A DNA stretch of 25,201 nt from Baffinella frigidus (Eukaryota > Cryptophyceae > Cryptomonadales > Baffinellaceae), in the NCBI GenBank assembly GCA_026770585.1, contig MU646309.1, forward strand, positions 268,816 through 294,016, in the 5' to 3' direction. The notes below the pieces were generated by a model. It saw only the letters and a program-made list of their open reading frames with translations, had not been told where the DNA came from and made no database searches. This document shows, in pieces, positions 1 through 25,201 of the stretch. Positions within the stretch are counted from its first letter, which is position 1, and every line of letters begins with the position of its first letter. The position numbers were made by a program, and so were the translations under genes.

Positions 1-500
1 CCCCCGCAGACGTCGCACCCAGGAGGAGGCTTGGTCTATCGGAGGGCCTCGCAGCGCCCAAGAGGCGTGGTCCGTCGGAGGGCCCCGTCACGCCGACGAG
101 GCTCGATCGATCGGAGGTCCCCGCAGTACCCAAGACAGGGACGAGGCTTGATCTATCAGAGGGCCCCGCAGCGCCGGTGAGGCTTGGTCTGTCGCCCCCC
201 CCCGCAGCCCCCGCAGTCCCCGAAGGGAGGGGTCTCGAGGAGTCGGAGGGCCCCGTAACACCGTGGCGGCTTGGTCTGTCGGAGGGCCCCGTAACGCCGT
301 GGAGGCTCGCGCTGTCGCCCCCCCCCGCAGAAGCCCCCGCAGAGCCCCCCACAGGGGATGCAGGGGACGCAGGGAGGAGGCTTGGTCTATCGGGGGGCCC
401 CGCAGCGCCCAAGAGGCGTGATTTATCGGAGGGCCCAGTAGCACCGAGGAGGATCGAGCTGTCGGGGATCCCCGTAGCGCCGAGGAGGCTTGAGGTGTCG
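1..500. repeat. GC-rich 36-bp minisatellite
   Basis: Tandem units close to GGCTTGGTCTGTCGGAGGGC followed by CCCGTAACGCCGTGG, 36 bp each, interrupted by C-rich insertions at 196-222 and 316-355. The period is a multiple of three, so every frame repeats as a 12-mer. Confidence 0.85.
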
Positions 501-559
501 TTGGCTTCTTGCTGCATCTGCACCCTCTCCCGCTCGCCTGCGTCCCCTGCACCGCCCAA
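1..559 (-). CDS. PH gene exon 11: 12-residue repeat region, open at left edge
   Basis: After AG at 560-561 the minus strand reads LGGAGDAGERERVQMQQEAN, then about 12 degenerate units of a 36-bp minisatellite encoding SLLGATGPSDRP-like 12-mers, with no stop to the window edge (186 codons). Other frames are also open: the plus strand to a stop at 561-563 (RLGLSEGPVTPW units) and a second minus frame (ALRGPPIDQASS units). Coding strand and frame are therefore inferred from phase continuity with exon 10 only. It may equally be a non-coding minisatellite. Confidence 0.4.
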   Translation of the reverse strand, partial: MGGAGDAGERERVQMQQEANDTSSLLGATGIPDSSILLGATGPSDKSRLLGAAGPPDRPSLLPASPASPVGGSAGASAGGGDSASLHGVTGPSDRPSRHGVTGPSDSSRPLPSGTAGAAGGGDRPSLTGAAGPSDRSSLVPVLGTAGTSDRSSLVGVTGPSDGPRLLGAARPSDRPSLLLGATSAG

Positions 560-3500
560 CTGACTTTCAGATGTTCCGAGGTTGACGGGTGTACGGGGGG
601 GGTTTAGGCTGTGGTGCGCCGTCGTGTGTTTGTGAATCTGCGGGGGTGTTGTAACCTTGGTGAGAACCGAGTGTGGCCACACGGTGGACTACGAACCTTT
701 CATCACAAGTCAACTTGCCTGAAGACAATCACCGTGTGGACCTTCTTTTGGAGCAGGCATTTGACTTAAGGCGCTGGCTTTCATGGGGAGTTGACTTAGG
801 CAAAATGTTCGGGCCCCGATTGAACTTGAGAATAGTTCGGCAACCCGACTGGGGCAGCCACACGAGGTTATCCATGCGAACATAATAAAAGTCGAGTGGG
901 GAATTGGCCACGTGGCGCCCACTTTTCGGGCGCCACGTGACCAAACATATAAAAATTACTACACAAACGCTTACAATCGACTTTTATTATGTTCGCATGG
1001 ATAGCCTCGTGTGGAGAGCCACGCAGGATCCTTCGTGGGGGTATTTCGTGGCTGGCATTTGACCCATTGGCTGGCATTTGAGCCATTTTCATATACATAA
1101 TCGACTTTTGAAATATTTTCACCAAAAAAAAACTTTTGAAATACCCCCCCCAACAATCCTGGGTGGCTAGACCTTGCACGAGAGTCTAGGATATGATCTG
1201 GCCTCAGGACGTCCCGGCCAAGGTCTAGCTCTCCACTCGAGAGGTCTAGGGCTAGACCGGTGGCTGCTAAGTGGGGTTAGGAGGCTCAGAGCTGGACCTT
1301 TGGCGCCGTTTCGAGCGACATTAACGTTTTGACCACACGGAAGAAGGCATCCACGCAACGGGCGGTTCGTCGTACAAAAAGAGGGTAAGGCGGTTTCGTC
1401 GTACAAAAGGAGGGTAAGGCGGTTTCGTCGTAGAAAAGGAGGGTCAGAGCTGGACCTTGGGCGCCGTTTCGAGCGGCAGGCCCGCTTCCGAGCCACCCGC
1501 CGAGCATCCCCGACGAACCCTGTGAGGTTATGGGCCTCAGTGAGTCCCCATGCACCCTGAGGTTATGGGCCTCAGTGAGCTCCCAGGTTACGAGTTTCCC
1601 GTACTTCCTCTTGCTTCTCGGCTGCCGTTCAGGAAGAGCGCTGCCCACCGAGACAAAAGTCGAGAGAGGAACGTCTCAAAAGCAAAAGTGGAACCTTCGT
1701 TGACTTAAGGTAACGGTGGAGAACCTGAGGTCGCCTCAGGTTATGAGGTTCGAGGTTGTGTGTGGCGGTGCGGTCCACGCGACGATGCCCTGTGTATCAA
1801 ATTGGCCTGTTTTCAAAGTCAACTCAACCACAAATCTGTCAACTTTGCGCGGATTCCGAACAGCACCCCCGAGGAATCCTGAGGTTATGGGCCTCATGTT
1901 GTGAGCTCGAGTTCCCCGAACGACGGTTAACCACACAGCGGACTTCGAAGAAATTTTGAATAACCCCTAAGCGATAAGACCTAGGACCCTACGGTAGGCA
2001 ACCCGTAGTGACATAGGGGGGTTCCTATGGATAAGGTAACGGAAAGGTGACGATTTGGGCCGAAAATCCCTTCGATGCCCGCTGTGTGGAATGGCATAGC
2101 TCACGTCTTTGAGGCGGGCCCGTCTCTCAAGGCTCATAGACTATTGTATCACTCAACTCAAGGCTCAAGGGCCTGATTTAGGACCCGTGTCGAGAGTAAT
2201 AAAGAAGACGAAGCAAAAGCGCCGTTTGTGAAGGGGGGGGGGCACTCCAGAATGCTGGAGAAACCTAATTACATGTGGGGTTGTAAACATTTGTACCAGG
2301 ATAGGGTATTCCAACCTCGTGACTGTGCTAATTTCGCAAAATTACATGACCAATCTCACGAAAGTTACTACAAAAATGTTACAACTCGCTTTTAAATAGG
2401 CCCCTCTAGCATTCTCGTGTGGGACCGCGCCTCGAAACAGCGCGTTTATCTCTTAAGTACCCATAGGGTGAATATTCACCAAAACCTGTCCTGAGGCGGG
2501 CCCTTCCACTCCTGAGGCGGGCCCGCCACGGGGTCGAGTTTCCGTTACCTTATCCGTAGGAACCCCCCTATGTCCCTACGGGTTGCCTACCGTAGGGTCG
2601 TAGGTCTTATCGCTTAGGGGTTATTCAAAACAACGTCAATTTTTAACGTTTCTGTTGCAAAAAAATGTCAACTTTGTGCACCTGTACTGAGGCGGGCCCG
2701 TTCACTCCCCAGGTGGGCCCTTGAAGTTCTGAGGCGGGCCCATCCCGAGGCCGTTTCTGGAACAAAAAGTCAACTTTTTACGTGTCTGATACAAAACAAC
2801 GTCAACATTTGACGTTTCTGGTACAAAGAAGGACACGTTAGTGTACCTGTCCTGAGGCGGGCCCGTTCCGGGCGCGGGCGCGGGAGGAAGGGAGGGGGGA
2901 CGGGAAGAAGGGCGTGCTGAAGCGCAGCGCGCGGTTTGCCACCTGTATCGGGGGTGAACCACGGCAGGTCATAACTGGGAATTTCAGGACGCAACGGTTC
3001 GTTTCGTGGTACTAAATGGTACGTAGCCACCTATCGACACGAAACTCCTCGTCCTTTCCACGTCCGATCCGAAAACAAAATTTCCGGACCCGGGTACAAT
3101 TTTTTAAAAAGACTTGTATCCTGAAATTCTGACTTGTGGCCTGGCGTGGATCGGGGGTGCATGTGGTGAAATCCTTGTTCGTAACTAGAGCCCGAAGTGG
3201 ACAAGATCGAGGATGCAGTTTGAGCCATTTGGGGTCACGTCCAACTTGGTACTGGGACGTGACCAACGCGCGGTTTGCCGCCTGTATCGATGAGTCCACA
3301 CAGCGGGCTACGAAGGGATTTTGAATAACACCTAAGCGATAAGACCTAGGACCCTACGGTAGGCATCCCGTAGGGACATAGAAGGGTTCCTACAGATAAG
3401 GTAACGGAAACTTGGGCTCTCAGCGGTTTGACGCCTGTATCGGGGGTAAATAAATAGAAGGCGATTTGGCGTCTGTAGAAGGGGTAACGGGACATGACGG

Positions 3501-3871
3501 TTCGTAGGTGATGGAGTAAAAGGTAAACCCGAACGGGGGTGACCGGTGCCGCCACTTAGCAGTGACTGAGGACCTTTTCATCTTGAAATCAAGGTGAAAT
3601 TCCGGTTAGGCTAGAGGGCAATGGATAAGATTATGGTACAAATCGGTAAGATGGACTGTATCCGTGAAGCCCCCGGTGGCTGCTAAGTGGTCAGTCAACC
3701 GCCGCACCGGGAGAGTAGGAAAGAAGAAGAACATAGAGGGAGAGAGAGGGGGGGAGGGAGAGAAAGCGGGGGGGAGAGAGAGAGCGAGCGAGAGAGAGAG
3801 AGAGATACGAGAGAGCGAGAGAGAGCGAGAGAGCGAGCGAGAGAGATACGAGAGAGAGAGAGAGCGCGCAC

Positions 3872-3919
<48 letters not shown>

Positions 3920-3969
3920 AGAGGGAAGAGAGAGAGAGCGAGAGACAGCGAGAGAGCGAGCGAGAGAGA

Positions 3970-4046
<77 letters not shown>

Positions 4047-4563
4047 AGAGAGAGAGAGAACAAAACGTGACTTGGCACTCACCTCCTCGCGATCCCCCGA
4101 TGCGAAATCGCGCGGTTTCGGGGGTGCGTCGCCAGCTGCAAACGTAGCTGCAAACGACGCCGGCCCCGCGCCCCCCTCTGTGTCCCGGGTTTCGGGTTCA
4201 GGGTTCAGGGTTTCGGACCCTACGGTAGGAAATCCGTAGGGACATAGGGGGAGTTCCTACGGATAAGGTAACGGAAAGGTGGCCCGATTTGAGCCGAAAA
4301 TCCCTTCGTAGACCGCTTTGTGGAGAGAGCTCTGCCCAAGCCTCTTGCGTGGCAGGCTTCAGGGTTCCAGGTTTGGGGGCAGCCGCGCCGTTTAGGGTTT
4401 ATGGTTCCGGGTTCCGGGTTCCGGGTTCCGGGTTCCTTTAGAGTTGCGGGTTGCGGGTTGCGGGTTTGGAGGCAGCCGCGCGATGTGACTGGGGGTGGCA
4501 CCGCCCCAGTCTGAGTGATTGAGTGAGTGAGATAGTGTGTGTGTGTGTGTGTGTGTTTGTGAC

Positions 4564-4596
<33 letters not shown>

Positions 4597-5255
4597 GGGG
4601 GCGCCACGCAAACTCGCCAACACGTCGATTGTTATTCGAAATCGTGGTACAAATTTAAAACGCGCTGGTATGAAACGTTTTAAACCTGAGATGGAAGAGG
4701 GTGCGGCGCGCGCCGCCGCGGCCGAGAGGGCTGAGACCCCACGCAAACTCGCTAACAAGTCGATAGTAATTCGAAATCGTGGTACAAATTTAAAACGAGA
4801 TGGTACGAAATGTTTTAAACCTGAGATGGAAGAGGGTGCGGCGCGCGCCGCCGCGGCCGAGAGGGCTGCGACCCACGTTTCTCGCTCGCGGGAGGACGCC
4901 ACCTGTTGAGGGTTTGGGGTTTGGGTTTTGGGGTTTGGGATTTGGGGTTCAGGGTTTGGGGTTTAGGGTTTAGTGTTTAGGGTTTGGGGTTTAGGGTTTA
5001 GGGTTTAGGGTTTAGGGTTTAGGGTTTAGGGTTTAAGGTTAAGGGTTTAGGGTTTAGGGTTTAGGGTTTAAAGTCTAGGGTTTAGGGTTTAGGGTTTGGG
5101 GAGGATGCCACCTGTTGAGAGAGGAAGAAGATTGTGAGAGGAGTGTGAGGCGGAAGGTTTTGGTTAGCAATGGGGGTGAACCACAGCTGCGAGACAGAGA
5201 GATGGGAGATGGGGAGACACGAGAGAGAGAGAGAGCGAGAGAAAGAGAGAGAGAG

Positions 5256-5300
<45 letters not shown>

Positions 5301-5303
5301 CAA

Positions 5304-5359
<56 letters not shown>

Positions 5360-8078
5360 AACACAGAGAAACATAAAGAGAAGGTTCTTGAGGGAAGCCC
5401 GGAGGAGAGAGAGAGAGAGAGAGAGAGGCGGAAAGACATTCGAGAGAGCGAGAGAGCGAGATAGAGAGATGGGAGAGAGAGAGTGATAAGAGAGAGAGAG
5501 AGAGAAAGAGAGAGAGAGGGAGAGAGAGTGAGTGAGATGGGAGAGAGAGAGAGAGAGAGAGATCTGAGAGAGAGACAGCGGGAGGCACGGGAAGGCACCG
5601 AAAGGACAAGCTCCCGGCCGCTCCAGCCTTCCCACACCTGTCAGGGTGCAGGATTCAGGGTTTAGGGTTTAGGGTTTAGGGTTTGGGGTTTAGGGTTTAG
5701 GGTTTAGGGTTTAGCTCACTCTCGTGGCATCAAGCACAACGCACGACTCTGCCAAGACACCTCTTGTGTCACTCGAGAGGAATTGACCTTTCCTGAAACC
5801 AACATGCCAATCACCCTATCCACACAGCGGGCTACGACGGGGTTTTCGGCCCAAATCGGGCCACATTTCCGTTACCTTATCCGTAGGAACCCCCCTATGC
5901 CCCCCTACGGGCTGCTTACCTTAGAGTCCTAGGTCTTATCGCTTAAGGACTATCGAAAATCCCTTCGAAGTCCGCTGTGTGGTCTATGACTGTACCGAGA
6001 AGAGCCAGGAGCGGCCCCGCGTGCTGCTCTGCCGGTACGCAATCCGTAGGGAAATAGGGTTCCTATTTGCCAACCGATTCTCGGCCGAACATCCTTCGTA
6101 GCCCGCTGTGTGGCACCTGATTCTTTCAGTCGAGTGGAATGTACCGAGAAGAGCCGGTGCTGCCTTGGCCGTCTACCGTACTCCAAAACCGTCAGTCAAC
6201 CACCACACATTCCCGCATTTCCAGCCTACGACTTTACCTAAACCATCCTGCCGATCTGCAGGGTGTTGGGGGGGGGGTGACCGAGAAGAGCCAGGAGCGC
6301 CCCCGAGTGCTGCCCTCCTGGTCTACCGCAGTACAATACGTCCAATGCCGTATGCTAGCCAGCCTGATAATTTGCTGTAGGGTGTGACCGAGAAGAGCCA
6401 GGAGCGCCCTCGCGTGCTGCCCTGCCCGTCACGGCCACACACCAATACTATAAGAGGACGGTATTGGGCCTAATTCTCTCAGCCTGATTCTTGAAGTGCC
6501 AGCGTATGACTGTACCGAGAAGAGCCAGGAGCGGCCACGCGTGCTGCCCAGCCCGTCGCGGCCTCTCGACACCCTCGCGCCGCCGAGGTGCAGCACCTGC
6601 GGGGGAGGAAGCCACATTTGTTTCGTTTCGTTGATGCACGGCATTAGGCTACGTACGCTCCTCACTCCCTCTCCCCCTCTCTCTCTCTCCCTCCCTTTCT
6701 CTCTCTCTCTCTCCCTCCCTCTCTCTCTCTCTCTCACTCTCTCCCCTTCCTGGCAAGGAAGCGGCCGCTCGAAAATATCGCGCCCTACGGTAGGAAACCC
6801 GTAGGGTCCTAGGGAGGTTCCTACGGATAAGGTAACGGAAAATCGGCCCCAAATCGGTGGAAAATTCGAGGTGCAGCACCTGCGGGAGGAATCCAGCTTG
6901 ATTTCGTTTCTAGAAGGGGGTGGTTTTGAGAATGATGACTTTTGATTGAGAGATGGCTTTTCCAACTGGTACCAGACTTACCACTCGAGAATGCTGGAGG
7001 ATCCTATTTACATGTGGGGTTGTAAATATTTGTACCAGGATAGGGTGTTCCAACCTCGTGACTGTGCAATATATGCAGAGTTACGTGACCAAGCAACGGA
7101 AGTTACTACACAAATTCCCACTTTTAAAAGCACAGCAGGTTTAAATAGGCCCTTCTGGCGTTCTCGTGTGGTACCAACGGCGCAAGAAATGTGACCAAAA
7201 CGGCTCATAGACTTCTGGATCACTCACTTTCAGGCTAGAGAGTACAACAGAAGAAGAGGAAGCACCTTGAGGGGTGCTGCGCCGTAGCTCCATTCGCATT
7301 CCAAGCGGTAGCCACACAGCGGACTTTGAAAGGATTTTGAGTAACCCACAAGCGATAAGACCTAGGACCTTACGGGTTGCCTACCGTAGGGCCATAGGGG
7401 GGTTCCTACGGATAAGGTTAACGGAAAGGTGGCCCGATTTGGGCCGTAGCTCCATTCGCATTGCAAGCGGTAGAACCACTCGAGGCTAGAAATGTGACCA
7501 TTTTTAAACAGGGATTCGTTTACACGTGAAGGGAAAAAAGGCGGGTAGTAATTTTCACACAAATGGGGGCGTTTGGTCACGTAGCGGGCGGAATTCCGCC
7601 TGCTACGTGACCACGCCTGCCCGTGACTGGTACTAAATTTAACAACCCCACATTTAGAATAGTCCCATTTCTAGCCTCGAGTGGAATGAGAACGTGTTCT
7701 CCGCAACGCTGACAGACTATTCTCAAGTTGACATTCCAGGTTCGCGGTACAACCCCGTCAACTTTGGGGCAGAAAAGAGCCCGGGGGAAGCAGCTTCGTG
7801 AGGGCCGACCGAAGATATTCCCCCCCGGATTCTCGGGGGAAATTCCGGTTGGAATCCATTGCAATAGATAAGATTCTGGTACAAACCGTTTAGATGGACT
7901 GCATCCGTGAAGACCCCGGTGGCTGCTAAGTGACTGTGGGGAGCTGGACTTTGAGGGGTGCTGCGCCGTGGCTCCAATCGCGCTCCGAGCGGAGCGCGAC
8001 TAATATTATTATGCGTTCCCGCAGGTAATCCTTGAGGGGTGCACCCCTCAAGGTGCTCCAGGCTCCGTGTAGCCCGCT

Positions 8079-8128
<50 letters not shown>

Positions 8129-11100
8129 AGCTCTCTCTCTCTCTCTCTCTCTCTCTGGGGACTGGACTTTGAGGGGTGCAGCGCCGTGGCTCCAATCACG
8201 CTCCGAGCGGTAGAACGCGCACGTGTTCTCCTTAACGCGAAGCACCTGATGCCGAGTGATCCTCGTCAATTGTACTGACCCAGATCGAACAGGGTTTCGG
8301 GTTTAGTTAGGGCTTAGGGTTTACAGTTTAGGGTTCTGGGTTCAGGGCCAAGGGGCCCAACGCGCAGCACCTGATCTACGGAGGGCCTTGGGGGGTTATA
8401 TAAAAGTCAATTTCCAAAGATTTTGGAGGAACACGGGCACATCTCGCACGTTTTCTTTGCAACGCACAGCACCTGGTAACGTCAAACCGAATCAGGTCAA
8501 ACCGTTACGATGACATAGGGGGGTTCCTACGGACAAGGTAACGGAAACTCGGCCCGAAATGGGCCAAAAGTCCCTTCGTAGCCCGCTGTGTGGTTGAGGC
8601 GTCTAGATGAACTTTGATCTGGCGGAGTTTCTTCCCCTGTTGTGGAGTGAGGGGAGCGGTAGAACGCGCACGTGTTGTCCGCAACGCGCAGCACCTGATC
8701 CACGGAGGGGGGTTATTCAAAAGTCAACCCTGGGGGGTTATTCAAAAGTCAATTTTCCAAGATTTTGGGAGGAACACGGGCACGTCTCGCCAAAAGTTGA
8801 CAGAAACGGCCTAACGGCTCCAAGAACGGACACCGGGTCACCCTCGATGCCGAGTGTTGGACTCGTCAATTTAATTTCGGAACGAGACAGAATCTGTCCC
8901 GCTATCTTAGGCTCCCCACGCGGACGGTAAGGATGTATATGCTATTTTAGGTATCAAATAATGCTATCTTACGTCTTTTCATCAGGACAGATTCTGGTAT
9001 GTTCCGAGATGAAGTTGTACTATGTGCATGGCTGTTGTGCCGAGTCATGGCGCTTTTAATGTTCAACGGTCACCTGATCACGGCAAACCGAATCAGGCCG
9101 GACCGTTACGCTCGAGTACAACATTTCCGTTACGTCAAGGAATCCACTGTTACCTAAAGTTAAGAGAGGTTCCCCTTTTGCTTTGAGACGTCCCGCTCTC
9201 GACGTTTGTCTCGGTGAGTCCTGAACGGCAGTCGAGAAGCAAGAGGAGCCGTGGTACACATGTTGAGAAACGCTTCCTCCACGCCAGGCTCGTGGGTAGG
9301 GTATTCAAGGCTCGTTCTTGGAGCCATTGGTCGTTGTTGGAGCCATTTTCTCCTGAAAAATGACTTTTGAATACCGTTTTCCCTCGAAAAAAATGACTTT
9401 TGAAGACTCCCCCCTCCAGCCCTGCGTGGTGAGGCGGCTGGATGGACTTTGATCTAATCCCGCCAGTCATTTGTTTTTAATGCTTCGGGGTTCCCAAAAT
9501 CATCAAAAATTACTACACAATTGACCAAATCAGTCACGTCCACGCCTGGACGTGACCAATTGTGTAGTAAATTTCGTTGATTTGGGGAACTCCTGAGCAT
9601 TTAAATCAAATGCCTGACGGGATGAGATCTGGCTGAGTTTCTTCCCTTGTTGTGGAGTGTGGGGTGCGGATGGAAACCGGGCGAAAGCCGAAAGGAGTTT
9701 CGGGTTTCGGGTTTCGGGATTCGGGATTCGGGTTTCGGGTTTCGTTTTTCGGGTTTCGGGTTCAGGGTTCAGGGTTTGAGGTCTGGGGTTTGGGGTCTGG
9801 GGTTTCGGGGTTGAGACCAGGAAACGCTCCCTCCAGAGGCGGACGATTGTGGCTACCGACCTGGGTTCGGGTGTGGGGTTTAGGGTTTAGGGTTTAGGGT
9901 TTGGGGTTTGGGGTTCAGGGTTTAGGGTTCAGGGTTTCGGGTTTCGGGTTTACCAGAGGCGCGAGCGCAGGGATCAGAGTTTCGGGTTTCGGGTTTCGGG
10001 TTCCGGGTTCCGGGTTTCGGGTTCCGGGTTTCGGGTTTCGGGTTTCGGGTTCAGGGTTTAGGGGTTGTTGATGACCAGAGGCGCGAGCGCGATTGCTTCC
10101 TGACCACCCCATGCACCACCTGCCTCAGGGACTGTTCTTAAGTTGACAGGACTGTTCTTAAGTTGTCAACTTAAGAACAGTCCCCGAGGCAGGTGCACCA
10201 CCTGCCTCAGGGACTATTCTTAAGTTGACATGCTGGGTGTGCGGTACAAATCCGTCAACTTTGGAGCGGAAAAGGGGCCGGGTTCACCAAACTGGTGAGC
10301 CCAAATAGACCGACACAGGGCTGGGAAGAGCTTGCACCTGCCGAGGGGTGTGTCAGCCACCAGCCCTCACGATTGGATCAAATCGCCGATGTTAGATTTG
10401 CGATTTACCCTTGATTTACCCTTGCAGAGACCCCGGATCTGGGGTCTCTGCGAGGGCAAATCTCAAGTCTAAAATCGATGATTTGGTCCACTCGGGAGGG
10501 TTGGTGGAGACACAGATGGGTGCGAGTTGGACACAGTCGGGTTGACTGATGATTTTCAACCCAAAAGTTGACGGATTTGTACCACAGCAAAGGGAAGTCA
10601 ACGTCCGTTCTCCTTTTTTTTTAATCACTCTCGATACAGGTCTTAGATGAGGCCCTTGAGCCTTGAGTTGAGTGAAACAAAAGTCTATGAGCCTTAAGAA
10701 ACGGGCCCGCCTCAGAGACAAGAGCCTCATTGTGAGGAGACCAGATTAATGCAGGCAGGTTACGATCCTCAACTGTTCACCACCAACCGGGTTGGTGGTC
10801 ACCATTGGACCAAATCATCGTTTTGAGACTTGAGATTTCACCATTGAACCAAATCATCGATTCAAGACTTGAGATTTACCCTTCCAACGGTGGGTGGACC
10901 AAATCATCGATTTGAGACTTGAGATTTACCCTTGCAGAGACCCCAGGTCCGGGGTCTCTGCAGGGGTACATCAAGGGTAAATCTAAAAATCTAAAATCGA
11001 CGATTTGATCCAATGCACTGCCAGCAGTGAAATTTCGTCCCAAGTTCACTAAGTCAACTGCCCCTGTATCCACAGCCTTAAGTCAATATTGTTGGTCCCA

Positions 11101-12099: not shown

Positions 12100-12755
12100 T
12101 TTCGAAAACGCCTGGGGTAAGGCTGTCCTTTTTGAGCCAACCAGGAAAAAACGAGGTGTGTACGCGGTGGGGTGTCTTCTTTCACACGGCACAGTACGGG
12201 GGATTCGTTGACGGCGTGTGGTTCGTGGAACCATCGCTATGGTGGGCATCTGTGATGAGAAGGCAGGGCGCGATGGGTGGTTTCGAACCATCTACTGCCT
12301 GTATCATTTCACGTTGGGGCGTTGCCAGACAGCCACGGCGCGCTACAGCCAAGAGATCACCAACTGCAATGACAGAGCAGTACATGTGCGGACAGTCCTG
12401 GGAGAACGACCCCTCACTTTGCAAGGCGTGGGCCCTCTGCCGTGGATGGAGGAAGGTGGAAAAGGTTGATTCGAGGCGCTTGAACGCTGCGCCCTGCGAA
12501 ATCAGTCGCACACAGCCGCAGAGCGGGAACGCACCACGCGCCTGGACGCACTCCCCTCGACCTGGTGTCCGTCCAACCCTCCTTGCTCTCCGTCCCCACC
12601 CGAGGCTAAATTGATCCACAATTTCAAAATCAAAATATTTATGGTCCACAAACGAAAACAAATTTCGTTTGATTTCAGTTAAATTTGGCGAAATTTACCA
12701 AATTGGCCGTCTGAATTTTCGATTTTGGTCAAAGTCAGGGCCTCGCACGTCATCT
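12100..12755. promoter_or_regulatory. Shared head-to-head intergenic region
   Basis: 656 bp separate the two start codons, so both promoters and 5' UTRs should lie here. It is free of MITEs, telomere-like repeats and microsatellites, unlike the surrounding DNA. An AT-rich stretch (about 12610-12720, including AAATATTTATGG) lies upstream of TM9SF. I see no clear TATA box or initiator I could defend. Open frames of up to 160 codons cross this region in several frames on both strands without homology. Confidence 0.5.
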
Positions 12756-13387
12756 ATGGGGCACGCTGGACGCGAAGCGCTGCGGCGCTCGCTCCTTCCC
12801 GTGTTGGTGCTCGCGCTATGCGCGCTGCCACTCGCGGTCGGCTTCTACCTGCCCGGCGTTGCACCTACTGATTATGCCCTCGGTGACGAGCTCCGTGCCA
12901 AGGTCCAACCCGACCCGCCAAAACCACGCCGCAGAAACGCGCTCGGTTTGGCCCTGTGGGGGGGTGCGTAGGAGTTCGAGGTAGTAGATGAGGTGTGGTG
13001 CGAGAGACTGATGCGGTTTGCTGTGCAGGTGGAGGCGCTCACCTCCGTGCGCACCCAGCTGCCGTAACCCTCCCCCCCGCCACCCCCTCCTCTGCCGCTC
13101 TGGATGATCCCGCGGTTTCTCACCTCCAGTTACTTACCTTCCCCCCTCTGGGCCCCCACAACAGGTACGAGTACTATTCACTGCCGTTCTGCAAGGATGG
13201 GGTCCTCCCCCACCCTCCATCCCCACCTTCCCGACACCCCAACCAACCCTCCCCTACCTCAACCGCGGCAACCCTCCTGCAACCAGCGAGCAGCATGCAC
13301 CCGCGCTCGTCCCACACCAGCTGACCTGTCTCCACGTCTCCCTCGCAGATCGATCTCGATTTGCACGAGGCTCTCAACCTCGGCGAG
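12756..13387 (+). CDS. TM9SF: TM9SF exons 1-4: signal peptide and start of lumenal domain
   Basis: Exon 1 (12756-12902, 49 codons) starts at an ATG followed by a basic stretch and a Leu/Ala-rich core ending AVG just before FYLPGVAP, a typical signal peptide with cleavage after about residue 29. Exon 2 (13029-13063) gives VEALTSVRTQLP, with the last Pro split by a phase-2 intron. Exon 3 (13165-13201) gives YEYYSLPFCKDG. Exon 4 (13349-13387) gives IDLDLHEALNLGE. These match the conserved lumenal N-terminus (LTS-x-TQLPY-x-YYSLPFC ... ENLGEVL). Reading straight on from exon 1 runs into a stop at 12969-12971, so splicing is required. These first introns are only 101-147 bp and lack the repeats of later ones. 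Confidence 0.92.
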
Positions 13388-14799
13388 GTGCCTGCCCCTG
13401 CCCAACCCCCACCAGCCTTCTCAGCGCGCCCAAACCGCCTTTTCGGATTCCCTTGATGTCCACACAGCGGACTTCGAAGGGATTTCTGAATAACGCTTAC
13501 GTGATAAGACCTAGGACCCTACGGTAGAAAATCCGTAGGGACATAGGGGGTTTCCTACGGATAAGGTGACGGAAACTCGGGCTCTCAGCGCCCGAAGATC
13601 CATTCGTAGCCCGCTGTGTGGTGTACTGGAATGGCGCAAAATCCCTCCGGTTTCCGACAGGAGCCGGTGCCATTCACAAATCAAGGGACCCGCAAAAGGC
13701 GGGCGGCGCTCGCTCTGATGGGCTAGTGGCAGACATGCGTTGACCTTCCACAGTTGACTGTGGTTCAGATTTAGGGTTTAGGGTCCAGGCACAACCCCGC
13801 TAGCCCAGACCAGCTGTCTGGGCGTCAGCGGGTAGGAGCTGTCGAGCACCCCACCAGCCCCCCCATCGTGCGTGCTCGTTTTGGGTAAGGCTGATTCGCA
13901 CAGGAAGGGGCGCTGATTTTGGACCCACTCGTGGTGTCCCAATGCGAGGGGGTGCACGCGAGAGAGCGAGGATCCCTCACAACCCCTAAACCTGAACCAC
14001 ATCAATTTTTAAGTCATTGCGCGCAGTGGGATCTGACACGCGAGTCGGTTGAGGCTCACAGGGGTGTGCCAGCGCACCACCAGCCCTCCGAGGCGGCTCA
14101 AATTGTGGTCTGGACTTTGAGCCATTTTACCTTGGATCTACCCCAGATCTGGGGTAGATGTCCATCTATTCGACCAATTTGTACCAGTGGGTCGCTTTTC
14201 CAGAAAAGCTCCAGACCACAATTTGAGCAACCTCCGAGGGCTGGTGGCATCGCGTGTCAGCGTGGTTCGGCGTTTAGGGTTGAGGGTTAGCGCATGGTGG
14301 ATGAACCGGGAACAGGGGTGTAGGGTGTAGGGTGTAGGGTGTAGGGTTCAGGGTGTGGGGCTCAGGGTGTTGGGGTTGTAGGGTGTAGGGCGTAAGGTGT
14401 AGGGCGTAGGGTGTAGGGTTTGGCAGGGACGACGCTGTATGGCATTTTTTGTAGTCCCGAGGGGGTTTGCAGTCCCGGGGGACACCCTACACCCTATACC
14501 CTACACCCTACACCCTACACCCTACACCCTACACCCTACACATTTCACCCTACACCATACACCATACACTTGACACCCTACACCCTAAACACGTCTACGC
14601 TAGCTTACCGTCCGTGCTGAGTTTGCACACCACCGTAGGCTTTCCGGGTGCATCCACTTATAGCATTCGTCTACTTCCACTTACGGGGTGCATCAACTTA
14701 TGGGATTCGTCCACTTGACAGGTGCTGCGTGGCTCGCGCATCCTCGACACCCCCTACCAGTTCCGCGTCGGCGTTAACCAGAACTGCAAGATCATGGTG

Positions 14800-14836
<37 letters not shown>

Positions 14837-15002
14837 CCTATCTCTCTCCCTCTTTCTCTCTCTCCCTCCCTCTCTCTCTCCCTCTTTCTCTCTCTCTCCC
14901 TCTCTCTCTCCCTCTCTCTCCCTCTCTCTCTATCTCTCTCTATCTCCCTCCCTATCCCTCTCCCTCCCTCACCAGAACTGCAAGATCACGGTGCCCCCCA
15001 TC

Positions 15003-15075
<73 letters not shown>

Positions 15076-18000
15076 NNNNNNNNNNTCCCCGCACCCCCCC
15101 CACTCCCACCTCCACCAACCTTGCGATGCTACAAACTCTTGCTTACAACCACGCCAGGTCAGAAGTTCAATTTTTGAAGATCGTGTAGTAAAATGACATT
15201 TCGTTCATGTAAAGCTGATTCTACCCGGGAAACACGCCAAAAGTGTTAGGAATTGGAGCTCTTTGCCTGCGCAATCATGTCTTTTAGATGAGAATGTGTA
15301 CCAGACGGAGCCATCTATTGCGAACGAGTGTGTCTGAAAATCCCACTTCTACCCTGGCGCGAAATGCACCACGTAATTCCTCAATCCACACGGTGGACTA
15401 CGAACCTTTCATCAAAAGTCAACTTGCCTCGAGGTAATTAACTTGAAGGATTTTCTGGTGCAATGTGGTCACGTCACCCCTTCAATTCCAGCCCCAGCGA
15501 AACCTTCGTAGCCCACCACGTGGAAAGCAAGTCTATCTCCTAGTTCTGTCCCACTTGATTTGGGCTCCCCGTAAATTCGCCCCCCCCCCCAATTTCACAG
15601 GTGAATTTTGACCCTGCCCCCCCCATGAAATTTACCTGTGAAATTTCGGGGGGGGCGAATTTATGGGGAGCCCAAATCTAAGTGGGACAGAGCTAGATCT
15701 CACGCATGCAGCCCCCGATCGCTGTTGGCACCTGGCCAGGTCACACGTGGGAATTTGCCTAAAGTTGAGTCTGCCTAAAGTTGATGCTGACGCCTAAAGT
15801 TGATCCCGACCGAACCCGCAGTGTCGGAAGGAGTACGACCAGGAGGAAATCCAGGTGCTGATCCCCTCCGAAACTCTAAACCCTAAACCCTAAACCCCAA
15901 ACCCTAAACCCTAAACCCTAAACCCTAAACCCTAAACCCTAAACCCAGAACACTAATTCCTAAACCCCTAAATCCCTGTTGGCAGGCGTTCGCACTCATG
16001 ATCGAGGAGGAGTACCGCGCGCACTTCCTCCTCGACAACCTCCCCATCGCCATGGTGCAACCTCTACACCTCCAACACCCTACACCCTACTCTCTACACC
16101 CTAAAACCTAAAACCTAAACCCTAAACCCTAAACCCTAAACCCTAAACCCTGACCCTCAGCCCTTAACCCCTAGACCCTAGACCCTAGACCCGAACCCCC
16201 GAACCCTGCACCATGAACCTCCCCATCGCCATGGTGCGTCAAACCCTACGCCCCTATACCCTCAAGACCCTAAACCCTAAACCCTGAACCCTAAACCCTA
16301 AACCCTAAACCCCAAACCCTGAACCCTAAACCCTGACCATCCGCCCTTAACCCCTAGACCCTAGACCCGAACCCCCGACCCCAGAACCATAAACCTCCCC
16401 CTCGCCATGGTGTCTCCCCCCCTCCCAGCTCTGCCCCAGTCTATTTCATCTCGGAACATACCAGAATCTGTTCACATGAAAAGGCGTACGATAGCATCAT
16501 TGTATGCCTAAAATAGCATGTACACCCTTGCCTTCGGCGTCGGGAGCCTAAGATAGCGGGACAGAATCTGTCTTGTTCCGAAATTATATTCGCTCTCACC
16601 AATCTGCCCCCCCCGGGACCCCTTCCCTAAGCTCTTAACCCTAAACACTGAACACTCAACACTCAACACTAAACCCGAAACCCGAAACCCGAAACCCGAA
16701 ACCCTAAACACTAAACCCCAACCCGTAATTTGGCAGGCGATCTACCATGAGAACGAGGAGGGGCAGACCACTAAGGCGTACGAGACCGGGTGACCCCCCT
16801 CTCACCCTCGCACGTATTAGCAAGTTGTGTGTAAGACGACTCAATAATACCATTGCGTGTAAGCCAAGCCGACTCAATCATACCGCCCCCCGTCCCTGCC
16901 GCGGCGAAACCCTAACCTGAACCCTGGACCCTAAAACAACCTCAACCATAACCCTGACCCTAACCCTAACCTCAACCCCAACCCTAACCCTCCAAACCCT
17001 ATTGATACCGACCGTTATTGACACCGACCCCAACACGGCCGCCATGCATACCCAACCACGGAGGCTTCAGCATGTAGGGTTCCCCTCTCACCCCCACACG
17101 TATTAGCAAGTTGTGTGTAAGCCGACGAAATAGTATTATTATAATCTAGGGTTATAATTATAACCCTGGCCTGAACCGTCAACCGTCAACCCTACACGCT
17201 GAAGCGTAGCCTCCGAGTGGGGAATGCATGGCGGAGGAGGTGTTGGGGTCGGTAGTCCCCCGTAGGAGAGTTAACTAAACCTGACGCTCGTTTGTAGGAG
17301 AGTTAAACTAAACCTGACGCTCGTTTGTAGGAAAGTTGACTAATCCGGATGTTGGTTCGCAGGTACCCGATCGGTCACGTGATCCACCCCACTGCGCCCG
17401 AGGCTGGCAAGGTACCACTCGAGGCTAGAAATGCGACTATTTTAAATGTGGGGTTCTTAAATTTAGTACCAGTCATGGGCAGGCGGGCGGAATTCTGCCC
17501 GCAACGTGACCAATTGCCCCTATTTGTGTGAAAATTACTACACACCTCTTTTTTTTTCTTCACTTGTAAAAAAAATCATGTTTTAAAATAGTCACACTTC
17601 TAGCCTCGAGTGGTACCACCAACCCTCACGGAGGGACCGAGTCGTCGATTTTAGAATCTCAGGTTGACCCGGGCAGCCAGGCGAATTCGCCTGTGGTGGA
17701 GCTATCTTCTATAGGAATTGGGAAATTGAAAATCGTCGATTTGGTCCCACCGTGAGGGTTGGTGGTACCGCGCAAAGTCAGTCCTAGCTCTACCCGAGTT
17801 TCATCCTGGCTCGTCCTAAAGGCTTTCTATTCACCCTTTTGTACTGGATTTTTGCTCTTAAATACTTTTAAGGACCGCGCAAACGGCTCCAAAGACCTGA
17901 TAGGAATTTCATCTCGGAACATACCAGAATCTGTCCACATAAAAAGGCGTAAGATAGCATCAGTATATGCTTAAAATAGCATATACACCCTTATCTTCGG

Positions 18001-19177
18001 CGTGGGAAGCCTAAGATAGCGGGACATAATCTGTCTTGTTCCGAAATTAGATTGGGCTTGGGGCTTGCCCCAAGACCTCAGTCACAAGCCCTCAACCCTC
18101 AGCCTCAAGCCGCTGTCGAGCGAGTTCGGCACGAAATCAACAGCCAAGGTCGAAACTCGACCTGGCTTTTCTGTAGGAACCCCCTATGTCCCTACGGTAG
18201 GACCTATGGATTACGTTTAGATGGACTTCCCTTCTCGCTTGGCAGCGGCAAGCCCCAAGCCACAGACCACACGGTGGGCTACCAAGGTTTCGTTGGGGCT
18301 GGAATTCAGGGTGTCACGTGACCAAATCGCACCAGAAAATCCCTGAAGTTAATTTTCCTCAAGGCACGTTGACTTTTGATGAAAGGTTCGTAGCCTACCG
18401 TGTAGGCAGCGGTGCACGGCCACACGTGCGTGCGCTTCAACCCGACACACTAAACACTGAACACTACGCACTGAAAACTAATTCCTAAACCCCAACCCTG
18501 AGCGGCAGGGGCAGGGGGCGGTGCATGCCCAGGGGGCGCCGCACGGCCACACTAAGTCCCGGGACTTATCGGCTTTGGCCATTTAGTGAGTTTGACCAGT
18601 TAGTGAGTTTGACCACTTCATGCATGCCCAGGGGCGCGCGCGCAGCGCTAGTCTCTTCTTCTTCTTCTTTGTTACTCTCGATACAGGTCCTAAATCAGGC
18701 CCTTTAGCCTTGGGTTGAGTGATACAATAGTCTATGAGCCTTAAGATACGGGCCCGCCTCGGAGACAGCGCCAGTGAAGAAACCTGACTAACCCTGAACA
18801 GCACGCACCCGAGCAGCAGGGGGCGGGGGCGGTGCACGCGCAGGGGGCGACGCACGGCCACACGCGCATCGTGCTCTTCAACCACCTCCGCTTCACCATC
18901 CTCTACAACGAGGATAAGAACCGCAACAAGGTCAACTTGAGGGTAGTCTAGCTCTGTCCCAGTTCAATTTGGGCTGGTTAGATAGAGCAGAGCGCCCCCC
19001 CCCGAAATTTCACAGGTGAATTTTGACCCCACCCCATGAAATTCACCTGTGAAATTTCGGGGGACATTGAACTCTCTCACGTAGCACTGATCATCTCGAG
19101 GAACGCTGCGTGCAAGTTGCTGTGAGACGTTTCCCGCTCTTGACTTTTGTCTCGGCGGACACCCGTTTTATGTTACG

Positions 19178-19224
<47 letters not shown>

Positions 19225-22200
19225 TTCTCTCTCTCCCTCGCTTTCTCTCTCTCCCTCTCTCTATCTCCCTCTATGTTCTTCTTCTTTCCTACTCTTCCGG
19301 TGCGGCGGTTGACTGCCACATGGTGGGCTACGAAGGTTTCGTTGGGGCTGGAATTCAGGGTGTTACGTGACCAAATTGTACCAGAAAATCCTTAAAAGTT
19401 AATTGTCTGAAGGTAAGTTGGCTTTTGATGTAAGGTTCGTAGTCCACCGTGTGGACTCGGTGCACCACACCTACGTCAACCTCTAGAAGTCAACTCGAGT
19501 TGACTTAGCGCCGGCTAGCCCTCCCAAGCGAACCAAACCGAGGGCATGGCTCGAGCCATTTCACGCCAGTTTTTGACCGAATTTACTAAATTTCCCGCCT
19601 GAAAAATCAGGTGCGCATCGTCGGGTTCGAGGTGGAGCCGTATTCGGTGCACCACACGTACGTGAACCAAGTCGACTTCTCGCAGTGCCCCAACCAGCAG
19701 GTCTCGCCCCTCTCGCCCGCTCCTCCCCCACCCACTTGGAAGCCTCGAGCCTTATCCACACAGAGGGCTACGCAGAGATTGTCCTCTCTCCCTTTCCTCT
19801 TCGCGTGCCTTCCCCTTTCGCCCCCCCCCGCCCCTCCGGTTATTGTGTAGGCAGAACCCGAAACCCTGCACCCGAAACCCGAAACCATAATCAGAAACCT
19901 AGCCCCTAAAACATAAACAGAACCCTAAAAGCTCCATCCGGAGTGACTACCCCAACCCCTAGCTAGAACCCTGAAGCGTCAATCCTGCGCCCTAAACAGG
20001 ACCCTAACCACCAGCCATCCCATGTGGCTCAAATAGTGCTCTGAAAGGTCTTCGATTTTACCTTGGATCGGGGTCGGATCCGACCCCGATCCAAGGTAAA
20101 ATCGAAAATGCCCCAGAGCACTATTTGAGCCACCTCCCAGGGCTAGTGGAAGCCGCGACCCCCAACCCCCAGGCGGGTGCTCCAGTCGTCCCCGGAAGAT
20201 GATTCTTCAACAGAGCTCGATGCATCCTTCGAAGGGCAACCCGTAAACAGACCCTGCACCCTGCACCATCAACAGGCGGGCGAGCGTGGGCTCTGCGCCC
20301 CTGCGCGCGTCCTCCAAAGCCGGTGGGCGAGTGGAGGACGGTGTTGGGATGAGTGACGTGGTGTGAGTGACGTGGCGGCACACACCTACTCCCGAGGCAG
20401 AAGCCCCAACCTCACACCCCCACACAGGCGGGCGAGCACGGCAACAGCTAGGACCCTAAAGCTTCAACCCTACGCCCCAAACAGGACCCTAAGCCGCAAC
20501 CCCCAACCCCCATGCGGGCAACCCGTAAACAGACCCTGAACCCCGAACCCCCAAACAGGCGGGTGAGCACGGGAACTGCAACCTCCAGACGTGCTCCAAG
20601 CAGCACCCGGTGAAAGCTCAACCCTCAACCCTCAACCCTGATCCCTCAACCCTAAACCCTAAACCCTACACCTTAAACCCTATACCCTAAACCCTAAACC
20701 CCGAACCCTAAACCCTAAAACCTAAACCCGAAACCCTAAACCCTAAACACTAAACCATGAACCCTAAACCCTGAACTCGAAACCAGGTGGGGGTCCGCGA
20801 GCAACCGATGATCATCGATCCCCGCCAGAAGGGCAAGACCGAGGTCACGCCCCAACCGAATGATATTCCTTGACCCTACTACACTGCCGGGCCGGAGTTT
20901 TTGTATAATTCAACTCACCTGCGAATGTGTAGTAAACAAGTACCCAATCTGGGTACCTCGTTTCTAAGTTGACAGATTTTGTGGGTGAATTGACTTTTAC
21001 AAAATCTCCGGCCTGGCAGTGTATTATATCCCTAACCCTATTATATCCCTACCCCTTAACCCTATTATATCCCTACCCCGTAACCCTATTATATCCGTAA
21101 ACCCGAACACCTATGGTCATCGACCCCCATCAGAAGGGCAAGACCAAGGTGACGCTTCAACCTTGAAAGCCCTACCCTACCACACAAGGCTGACATTGGC
21201 CTTGTCATAAATGTTGGTTTTAAGGTCGCGTCCAGGATCTGTAGTGAGTTTTTATCAAGTTGGTCACGTAACTCTACGGAATTTCATAGAGTTGCGTGAC
21301 TAGGTGGGGGTCCGCGAGCACCCTATGATTATCGACCCCCGTCAGGAGGGTAAGACCGAGGTCACGCCTCAACCCTAAAAGTCCTACCCTAATCCCGAAA
21401 TCTGAAACCTGAAACCCCAAACCTCAAACCTCATACCTCAAACCTCAAACCCTGTGCACCCTACCCCACTCCCGAAACCCGAAACCCCAAACCCAAGACC
21501 TGAAGCTCGAAACCCGGAACCCCAAACCCCAAATCCCAAACCCCAAACCCCAAACCCCGAACCCCGAACCCCAAACTCTAAACCCTAATGCAGGTGATCT
21601 GGACGTACAACGTGACTTTTCAGCCCTCCCGCAACTGAGCCCCACCACCCTAACCCCTAACCCCTAAACCCCTAACCCCCAAACCCCAACCCCCAAATCC
21701 TATCCCAGGTGATCAGGACATTTGACGCTCAAACCCTGATGTCTAAACCTTAACCCCTCGATGCTAAACCCTAATCGGTATCCCAGGTGATCTGGACGTA
21801 CGACGTGACCTTCCAGCCCTCCAACATCCGCTGGTCCACTCGGTACCTCCCCCTCCCTTCCCACCAGTCCGTTTTCCAGACCACTAGTATTGCAGTTTTC
21901 GGGTCAGCTCGGATTTTGGGTCGGGGTCGGGAGGTCGGGAAATCGAGAAGAAAATTTGATAATTTTTGCGTCCATCTAAAGTTTTATGCCATCGTATGCA
22001 TTGATTTGATGACAAGACGCACACCCCACCCATGACATGTCACATTTTTATCACCTTTTCGATTTTCTTCCTTTCACGACCTCCCGGCCCGACCTTGAGA
22101 AACGAAACGCCGCGTTCTGAAATTCCCGCGTGTGTCGCGGCGTGGTACAGGTGGGACCCTTAAGTGGCCTACTCGCCACTTAAGGGATACTGTATTCCCC

Positions 22201-25200
22201 TGAAAAAGTTGACTGATTGCAACTCTCCGAGCAGGTGGGACACGTACCTGCAGTCGGCCGACGACGCGGAGGTGCCTAGCCCCAAACCCTCAACCCTACA
22301 CCCTACACCCTAAACCTTGCACCCTACACCCTACACCCTACACCCTACACCCTACACCCTACACCCTACACCCTAAAACCTTGGCCCTAAGCCCCAAACC
22401 CCACACCCCACACCCCGAACCCCGAACCCAAAACCCAAAACCCTGAACCCTGAACCCTAAACCTCTAAACCCTAAACCCAAAATGCCAAAGCTGAAAGCC
22501 GAAAGCAGGTGCACTGGTTCGCCATCCTCAACTCGTTCATGCTCGTCATGTTCCTCTCGGGCCTCATCGCCATGATCATGGTAACCACGCCAGAGCGCTC
22601 CAGGGAAACCGACGCCGTATCTCGAGGGAAACCGACGCCTTATCCACGCCAGATCTGGCGTCGTTGACTTGAGTATCCAGGAGATTTCCCCTGAAACATG
22701 TCAAAAGTGGATGTTTCGAGCCCTCTGGCGTGGATGGTTCGCGATCCTCAACTCGTTCATGCTCGTCATGTTCCTCTCGGGCCTGATCGCCATGATCATG
22801 GTAAAGTCAACCCCAGTACAAAAGTCAACCCCAGTAAAAATCGCAAAGTCAACCCCAGCACAAAAAGTCAACCCCAGTGCAAACACTTCCGCCGTTTAAA
22901 CGCGCGTTGCCCGTACTGTAAGATCTGGCTTTTTAAAAAAGTGTACCAGGAAGCGACTAGATGGCTCTGGAAAGGGGTCCTGGGGTCAACTGTTTTGCAC
23001 TGGTTCGCCCTGAACCCTCAACTCTCAACCCTCAATCTTCAAGTCTGGATCCTCAACCCTAAAGTCTGGATGCTAAACCCCAAACTGCATCAAACCAGGT
23101 GCGGACGCTCCGGCGGGACTTCCAGCGGTACGAGAGCAAGGAGATGCTTGAGGAGGGCCAGGAGGAGACCGGCTGGAAGCTGGTACGCCAGAGAGAGAGA
23201 GGGAGAGAGGGAGAGGGAGAGAGAGGGTGGGAGAGAGAGAGAGGGAGAGAGGGAGAGAGAAAGCGAGAGAAAGAGCGAGACAGCGAGAGGGAGAGAGAGA
23301 GGGAGAGAGAGAGGGAGAGAGAGAGGGAGAGAGCAAGGGGATGCTCGGGGAGGGCCAGGAGGAGACCGGCTGGAAGCTGGTACTCTACTGGGTCCACTTT
23401 AGACGTTATTGTGGTCAGCCAAAAGTCAACTCAATGGCAGAATCCTTCAAATCGAAGGATTCCGCCAAAAGTTGACGGTGCGGGCAGGGGAAGTTGACTT
23501 TTGCCATTGCCTCCCTTCAGGTCTAGCGTAGTTAGGGTATCGGGGTTTGTGATTTAGGTTGTTTGCGGTTTAGGGTGCAGAAGTTAGAATCTAGACTTTA
23601 GGGGTTTAGGGGTGATGGGGTGAGAGGAGGGCCAGGAGCAGACCGGATGGAAGCTGGTACGCTGCTGGGTTTAGGTTTATGGATTTAGGGTTTAGGGTGT
23701 TTGAGGTTTAGGATTTAGAATTTCGGTTTAGGGGTTTAGGTCTAAACGATGCTGACAGGTCTTTACTGAACCTTAAAACGTCTGAACCATAACCTTAACG
23801 CGTCCAGAGAGGGCTCGCAAGTGAATGCCGAAATCCTCAACCCTGGAACCCTACACTAGTGGCTACACGTCTGCGCTATTTAGTCGGCTCTGAACATAGG
23901 GCGAATTCACGAATTTATGGCGAATTCACGAATTTAGAGGTGAATTCACTGACTCGAGACGTATAGCCACTAGGTACGTCTCGAGTCAGTGAATTCACTG
24001 CTAAATTCGTGAATTCGCGTTAAGTTAAGAGCCGCGACCAAATAGCGCAGACGTATAGCCACTAGGTGCACGGCGAAACATCCCCGAGTTACCCTCGTAC
24101 CCACCTAGTGTAGGGTTCCAGGGGAAACCCTAAACCCTAAACCCTCGACTGCGCTTTACATTCCTGTGTTCAGGGGTTAGGTTCAGGGGGTTTAGGCCTG
24201 GACCCTAGAACCCGGAACCCAGAACCCGGAACCCAGGAACGTCAAGCGCGATGTACGCCCTGCCGTCCAACCACACAGCGGGCTACAAAGGCATTTTCGG
24301 GCGCTGAGAGCCCGAGTTTCCGTTTCCTTATCCGTAGGAACCCCCCTTTGTCCCTACGGGTCGCCTACTGTAGGTTCCTAGGTCTTATCGCTTAGGGGTT
24401 ATTCAAAATCCCTTCCAAATCCGCTGTGTGGGGGTTCAGCTAACAACTCAACACCTGCATCGCGGGTGGCGTGGCAGGTGCACGGTCACGTGTTCGTAAC
24501 TCGCGATTTACTTTCCTGCATTCCCTCAAACCCTCACACCCGGAACCAGGTGCACCGTGACGTGCTCCGGCAACCGCAGGATATGCTTTCCGGTTGCCTG
24601 GATAAGACAACTACCCCTCCCCCGTAGTAGGCTAGCCCTCAAACCCTCACACCCGAAAATAGGTGCACGGTGACGTGTTCCGCCCGCCCCCCCTCGCCGG
24701 GTGGCTCTCGGTCTTCGTCGGTACCGGCGTCCAGGTTACGAGCCCCGAAACCCGAAACCCGTCTACTTTCGACTGGCTTTACACCAAGTTGACAGGCGTC
24801 AGATTTGACCACTGCCGTTCGTGCAGCCGGGGCCCTGAACCAGGTTGCGACCCCCCCACACACGTCCACTTTCGACTGACTGTGCAGTAAGTTGACGGTT
24901 TTATAGTGTGAGCCGCCCCGCCCCCCCTCGCCGGGTGGCTCTCGGTCTCTTCGAAACGCAGCTGCCGATTTCGCTGTCGTTCCTGATGGTGTTCACGCGA
25001 CCTGAACCCTCACCCCGAAACCCGACACCTAAGCCCCGAACCCCGATAACCTGAAACCCCGAAAAACCCAAACCCTGATCCCGATCACTCTGAGTAGCTG
25101 GTGATTTCGCTGTCGTTTCTGATGGTGTTCGCGTGATGGTGTTCGCGAGACCTTAACCCTCACCCCTCAACCCTCACCCCTCAACCCTCACCCCCCAACC

Positions 25201-25201: not shown

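Follow-up and report, generated by a model that had tools for sequence, protein, structure and literature searches.

The window analysed here, a stretch of 25,201 nt of the Baffinella frigidus genome, contains two genes whose introns hold extra, mostly truncated copies of the edges of their own exons, splice sites included. This arrangement raises the question of whether introns in this organism grow by a process that acts at splice junctions, as the original prediction from this DNA proposed, or whether the copies are a product of local duplication in general.

The first gene, TM9SF/EMP70, was modelled as 19 exons at 12756..24988 on the plus strand, with all 18 modelled introns bounded by GT-AG and the 3' part of the gene lying beyond the window. 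Its 390-aa product matches the Pfam family EMP70 at E=1.9e-90. Each exon, extended by 10 nt on either side, was used as a BLAST query against both strands of 12601-25201. Altogether we found 20 exon copies at E ≤ 0.05 (19 at E ≤ 1e-3) in 11 of the 19 exons, which confirmed for this gene that exon-edge copies lie in the adjoining introns. All 20 are on the strand of the exon itself and are located in the adjoining intron or, for exon 19, in the DNA just downstream (Table 1). The reversed-sequence control for the TM9SF exons produced four matches, the best at E=0.028.

Predicted copies were recovered for exon 5 (14971), exon 7 (16216, 16392), exon 14 (21594, 21709), exon 17 (23329, 23624) and exon 18 (24478, 24550). 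Among the three copies proposed for the exon 10 start, the one at 18501 stood (as 18497-18552), the one at 18405-18442 proved to consist mainly of exon 10 positions 9-40, and that at 18618 gave no match at E ≤ 0.05. The exon 12 start copy at 20424 held, and its companion at 20271 appeared only at E=0.026; the sequence at 19457, taken for an exon 11 start, comes from the exon interior (positions 34-58). Beyond the copies first listed, the search revealed a whole and a partial (21109) copy of exon 13, a 97% copy of exon 16, a whole copy of exon 19, an interior piece of exon 18 at 24917 and, at 22996, a weak match to the start of exon 16. As a separate observation, 11 of the 18 exons from exon 2 to exon 19 start with GT right after the acceptor AG, that is, in an AGGT proto-splice context.

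The second gene lies on the minus strand and had been labelled PH; no PH domain was found by Pfam in the pieces tried. The four copies of its exon 5 end, the copies on both sides of exon 4 and the copy of the exon 10 end were all confirmed, and two of the three copies proposed for the exon 9 start were found at E ≤ 0.05. The reversed control for these four exons yielded eight matches (best E=0.003). The exons were picked since their copies were visible and are therefore uninformative on frequency. Rows weaker than 1e-3 were left out of the counts, among them two P4 copies of the acceptor type, both on the side expected, one interior P4 copy, two interior P9 copies and an antisense P10 match (E=0.033); also left out, at E=0.001, were interior P4 30-63, P9 78-93 and an antisense match of P9 76-95 at 10700. 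The same gene includes a 136-bp tandem duplication (93%) at 4604-4874 that may hold a small exon, and at 88-603 a minus-strand open frame of 171 aa extends over 76- and 114-nt repeat families, possibly a coding tandem repeat.

Table 1. Exons, exon copies and a local repeat in the window (positions in nt of the window; copies are listed with the exon from which they derive)
Feature	Position	Strand	Basis	Remark
Exon 5 of TM9SF	14722..14796	+	gene model	
Exon 5 end and donor, copy	14971..14996	+	BLAST, E=1.4e-7	behind (CT)n tract
Exon 7 end and donor, copy 1	16216..16237	+	BLAST, unit alignment	whole 179-bp unit repeated
Exon 7 end and donor, copy 2	16392..16412	+	BLAST	
Intron 8 start	16796..16849	+		repeated at 17082-17135; intron-only local repeat from 7 nt past exon 8
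Exon 10 positions 9-40, copy	18414..18442	+	BLAST	adjoins TIR element 18267-18403
Intron 9 end, acceptor and exon 10 start, copy	18497..18552	+	BLAST	
Exon 11 interior (34-58), copy	19457..19481	+	BLAST	adjoins TIR element 19316-19455
Acceptor region and exon 12 start, copy	20234..20296	+		upstream part split by TIR element ~20007-20149
Acceptor and exon 12 start, second copy	20408..20448	+	BLAST	
Exon 13, partial copy and donor	21109..21185	+	BLAST	
Exon 13, whole copy (21304-21360)	21299..21374	+	BLAST	with both splice sites
Acceptor and exon 14 start, copy	21591..21629	+	BLAST	
Acceptor and exon 14 start, second copy	21701..21727	+	BLAST	
Exon 16 from position 7, and donor, copy	22735..22804	+		97% copy; TIR element between copy and exon
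Exon 16 positions 2-26, weak copy	22996..23024	+	BLAST, E=8.3e-4	downstream side, against the rule
Exon 17 end and donor, copy	23329..23383	+	BLAST	behind (GA)n tract
Exon 17 end and donor, second copy	23624..23662	+	BLAST	
Acceptor and exon 18 start, copy	24476..24495	+	BLAST	
Intron 17 end, acceptor and exon 18 start, second copy	24523..24569	+		
Exon 18 interior (21-52), copy	24917..24948	+	BLAST	downstream
Exon 19, whole copy	25096..25136	+	BLAST	
Exon 4 of minus-strand gene	8168..8245	-		copies 8654-8699 (acceptor); 7937-7992, 7264-7311 (donor)
Exon 5 of minus-strand gene	6516..6596	-		copies 6867-6886 (acceptor); 6387-6436, 6280-6315, 6137-6164, 5985-6036 (donor)
Exon 9 of minus-strand gene	2847..2942	-		copies 3264-3289, 3423-3446 (acceptor); 2673-2703, 2484-2507 (donor)
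Exon 10 of minus-strand gene	1456..1519	-		copy 1286-1320 (donor)

Since the 40 kb flanking the window on each side read N, kinesin exons elsewhere in the 382-Mb assembly were used as a sample, comprising 30 loci out of 45 matches. Exon limits at these loci and at those of the chaperonin TCP1 were predicted with a codon score for which TM9SF served as the training gene. Same-strand copies of the locus's own exon were found at E ≤ 1e-3 in 12 of the 29 usable kinesin loci, with one reversed-control match; among ten chaperonin loci, nine of them with an exon model, three of nine exons carry copies, a count made without a reversed control. The copies thus extend to other contigs, beyond this scaffold. 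Several of the kinesin and chaperonin loci share a gene or contig (C506, C101, C23, C94, C6, C39), so that the loci are not independent genes. The overall pattern is uneven, with kinesin loci L034, L035, L045 and L051 almost devoid of local repeats. As seen with L026-L030 and L042, some kinesin genes combine long open frames with a lack of edge copies at E ≤ 1e-3, and other kinesin genes are split into exons of ~100 nt with many copies. Rows of two loci were left out of the counts: L031, which has one antisense match only (E=2e-7), and L054, whose match is a copy of the L047 exon and whose two rows were dropped. A cross-locus control was likewise left out, being confounded by kinesin homology. 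Viral contigs (L001-L004) contain a single 22-nt match to the window, in L004. At L025 (reverse-complement coordinates 374-4789), predicted exons encode repeated cysteine-rich and RCC1-like units, named by eye.

The position of the copies relative to their exons was scored for 68 copies from 26 exons, a table that omits the whole copies of exons 13 and 19 and the weak copy of exon 16 positions 2-26. These rows include 27 copies with an acceptor only, 30 with a donor only and 11 interior copies with neither. All acceptor-type copies are located upstream (27/27) and all donor-type copies downstream (30/30); the chaperonin loci contribute one acceptor and two donor copies, 3/3 on the predicted side, which gives 60/60 for all scored copies with a single splice site. 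Each of them (57/57 and 3/3) crosses the exon boundary, keeps the strand and lies on the intron side, as in junction-crossing tandem duplication. The proposed strict same-side rule therefore holds for single-splice-site copies, but it is not exceptionless: the exceptions are the 11 interior copies among the 68 rows, the whole-exon copies of exons 13 and 19, the weak exon 16 start piece downstream (22996) and the antisense match at L031. In a junction duplication of the tandem type the side order is forced, because the copy still joined to the exon counts as the real one, and random local copy-and-paste would not give the observed order. The homologous segments measure 20-228 nt with a median of 55, in place of the 15-70 bp first estimated.

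Coverage by local direct repeats was calculated for 20 of the 30 kinesin loci. Simple repeats were masked beforehand, as was any intron DNA that recurs at other loci. Local direct repeats cover 43% of exon starts (301/697), 40% of exon middles (486/1202) and 46% of exon ends (315/692), as well as 38% of near intron (1522/4005) and 31% of far intron (12552/40579), the latter with unannotated neighbour exons included. Random placement, in which segments as long as those seen (median 55 nt) were dropped on the observed exons, predicts 45.7 edge copies among 68 where 57 were seen (compared as plain counts), 19.8 interior copies where 11 were seen, and 2.5 whole copies; the two whole copies seen, those of exons 13 and 19, are both outside the 68-row table. 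Edge copies exceed this expectation moderately, and interior duplications, whose effect would be to change the protein, fall short of it.

Could exon edges themselves, for instance through R-loops or transposon targeting, cause breaks, with introns growing from their ends? The edge excess speaks for such a process, as do the local direct-repeat pairs of TM9SF, counted by hand, in which 17 of 27 overlap an exon and three more join two copies. The homology also often stops near the splice site, within 3 nt in 10 of 27 acceptor copies and within 6 nt in 12 of 30 donor copies, the median extension past the site being 12 nt for acceptors and 9 nt for donors. However, exon middles in the 20 kinesin loci are covered about as well as edges and far intron still reaches 31%, and the intron values are probably underestimates, since exon copies, with one conserved partner, are easier to detect. 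Because middle coverage is close to that of the edges and the edge share is near random placement, local duplication appears to be general, and we regard a junction-specific process as unlikely. What stands of the proposed mode of intron growth is that the copies are local, same-strand and side-specific and lengthen introns; its specificity to splice junctions is not supported.

At several loci whole units are repeated, intron included. The exon 7 unit recurs at spacings of 179 and 176, with 149/171 identity (z=10.8) in the first pair. Whole-unit identities amount to 187/207 and 128/143 at L037, 167/174 at L048, 174/237 at L040 and 221/251 at L052 (spacings 252 and 253); a whole-unit repeat is present also at P4 in the minus-strand gene, and the copies at L055 are spaced 145, 177, 192, 177 and 192. 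Counted by hand, 10 of the 33 outermost pairs show whole-unit homology at z ≥ 4 (e.g. L048, the L052 acceptor, L040 and P4); for inner pairs the score is raised by exon sequence that belongs to the next copy. The remaining 23 pairs fall below this value (e.g. exons 5, 10, 12, 13 and 16, the last exon 7 pair, L036, the L039 donor, L043, the L050 donor and P10), and plain tandem duplication is therefore not the whole story. In other pairs the repeat is limited to the exon edge plus a handful of intron bases, and foreign DNA lies between the copies: a (CT)n tract follows exon 5, a (GA)n tract exon 17 and a TIR element exon 16. This copy-filler-copy topology, seen at exons 5, 7 (last pair), 16 and 17 and at L050, fits the pattern expected from a staggered break that is filled in and joined with filler.

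Telomere-like DNA, originally named among the separators of copies, is present in 18 of 57 gaps but is no commoner there than in random 200-nt segments (85/240 and 161/400). With this lack of enrichment, telomere-like filler was rejected as a cause and telomerase repair, as outlined in the excerpt of PMC2246262 consulted, was set aside.

Element-flanked halves of exons could also arise if short TIR elements entered exons and aberrant transposition or excision repair duplicated the flanking exon DNA. TIR elements adjoin copies of exons 10, 11 and 16. In a search that compared the sampled loci and kept the best four matches per breakpoint, the filler matches other contigs up to or within ~1 base of the breakpoint in at least 3 of 55 cases (L039 d64, L055 d15, E16 d7), and matches elsewhere on its own contig at two more breakpoints (L039 u67, u78) among the matches listed. 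Breakpoints also match in several of the 12 exons with copies on both sides (e.g. 97/97 at L037 and 20/21 at exon 18), hinting at single events; the mean absolute difference is 17.2 nt. However, this matching is not significant by permutation (2457/20000; 2208 in the median version), and complementary breakpoints, by which one event would yield both halves, were dropped as a candidate. At the majority of the 55 breakpoints, the adjoining DNA is simple repeat or gives no filler match of this kind. Intron 11 contains a contiguous 134-nt repeat (20446-20579) that, read by hand, corresponds to three pieces, two of them split by the TIR element at ~20007-20149; since the element interrupts a repeat that is contiguous elsewhere, it most simply entered after the duplication. 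A transposon-driven origin is accordingly quite improbable.

Short TIR elements of the type CCAC...GTGG are numerous in the window (e.g. 858-1014, 1931-2089, 7476-7684, 14077-14247 and 17412-17769), where they share introns with other DNA. A repeated dinucleotide (AG, AA, TA, CA) flanks several of them by eye and is absent at, for example, 13460-13621; for the elements that have it, it suggests a putative 2-bp target-site duplication. Intron 9 carries two adjacent TIR elements at its start (17412-17769), 3 nt past the exon, and TA borders each of them.

That the copies are functional decoy or alternative splice sites under selection is very unlikely. They do have GT or AG (by construction in the frame test) and good exon identity, and the exon 16 copy differs by two changes, both synonymous. 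In contrast, 16 of 57 copies lie a multiple of 3 nt from the real site and only one of 57 is in frame and open, which leaves in-frame alternative splicing unsupported; substitutions comprise 36 synonymous and 56 nonsynonymous changes, compared to 23% synonymous expected at random, three alignments being misanchored. The copies look neutral. Exon definition is a natural candidate for why the spliceosome would ignore half-exons, whose partner edge is missing. An assembly artefact, with haplotypes or gap filling joined in tandem, is hardly credible even in a draft with N gaps (one at 15076-15085), given that the copies differ by 0-26%, break off at varied points, are separated or interrupted by elements and are spread over several contigs.

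The pattern is probably the outcome of ordinary, recurrent local direct duplication (homologous part 20-228 nt), shaped by selection and not by a junction process. Two routes may contribute. Units of ~100-450 bp would be duplicated in tandem, and staggered breaks would be repaired by filling in and joining the ends, with filler DNA placed between the two target copies; we infer break repair to be the trigger. Exons are ~100 nt long, so that a segment of 55 nt placed at random will in most cases run across an exon edge. After a tandem-type event, an extra exon end with its donor would fall downstream and an extra exon start with its acceptor upstream, so that the exon would stay whole in the other copy. 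Selection would then retain exon-sparing events and remove exon-breaking ones, TIR elements and simple repeats would insert as well, and filler-plus-edge units would amplify further. Together, selection and this geometry are enough to account for most of what is seen. Counting against local duplication of this general kind are the edge excess (57 vs 45.7), the junction-centred TM9SF pairs, the homology ending near splice sites, the antisense copy at L031 and the loci with hardly any local repeats; the interior copies within introns (11/68) are no direct consequence of tandem duplication either, except where later truncation produced them.

Although no described system had been named for this signature, junction-crossing tandem duplication is already known from a potato RdRp gene, in which, according to PMC4974935, a tandem genomic duplication across an intron-exon boundary gave rise to one new intron. 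The present copies resemble that case in spanning the intron-exon boundary, with whole-unit tandem homology at some loci, and in carrying point changes. Here, however, numerous partial copies are found within the existing introns of several genes, and filler is frequent. The consulted part of PMC3443670 treats tandem duplication as a recognised route of intron gain. Its Rogers-type AGGT exonic duplication likewise involves local exon duplication by splice signals, and 11 of 18 TM9SF exons have GT after AG; in contrast, the copies described here are within introns. The staggered-break intron gain of Daphnia in the same source also leaves an insert with flanking direct repeats, but the repeats here are at least 20 nt long and contain exon edges, and it is existing introns that they enlarge. 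When breaks with protruding ends are repaired, small tandem duplications result (PMC8355091 and PMC5730883, in the portions consulted); these too are short, same-strand direct copies, whereas the copies here often lie apart, with long filler such as elements and simple repeats in between. Introners, as presented in the portion of PMC9860276 consulted, share the presence of TIR elements in introns; unlike them, the sequence copied here is the local exon and not a mobile family. Genome-wide half-exon copies in introns were not described in the literature searched, which consisted of titles and the beginnings of abstracts and left subscription journals mostly outside. The copies are thus a known kind of event at a striking extent.

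If the sampled frequencies (11/19, 12/29 and 3/9) hold, local duplication would be a main source of intron length in this genome. Where local duplication is frequent, the spliceosome must tell genuine exon edges apart from near-identical copies that lie within some hundreds of bases. A bolder possibility, which we advance tentatively and consider doubtful, is that break repair is so frequent that many exons are flanked by silent half-exons with near-perfect splice sites, ignored by means of exon definition, and that two-sided matches are single events in which an intact exon copy lies inside a broken one. If true, the genome would serve as a natural testing ground for exon definition as well as for the growth of introns through duplication. 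At the sampled frequencies the copies would allow tests of both, and they also carry a warning for annotation, as half-exon copies may pass for alternative splice sites or short exons.
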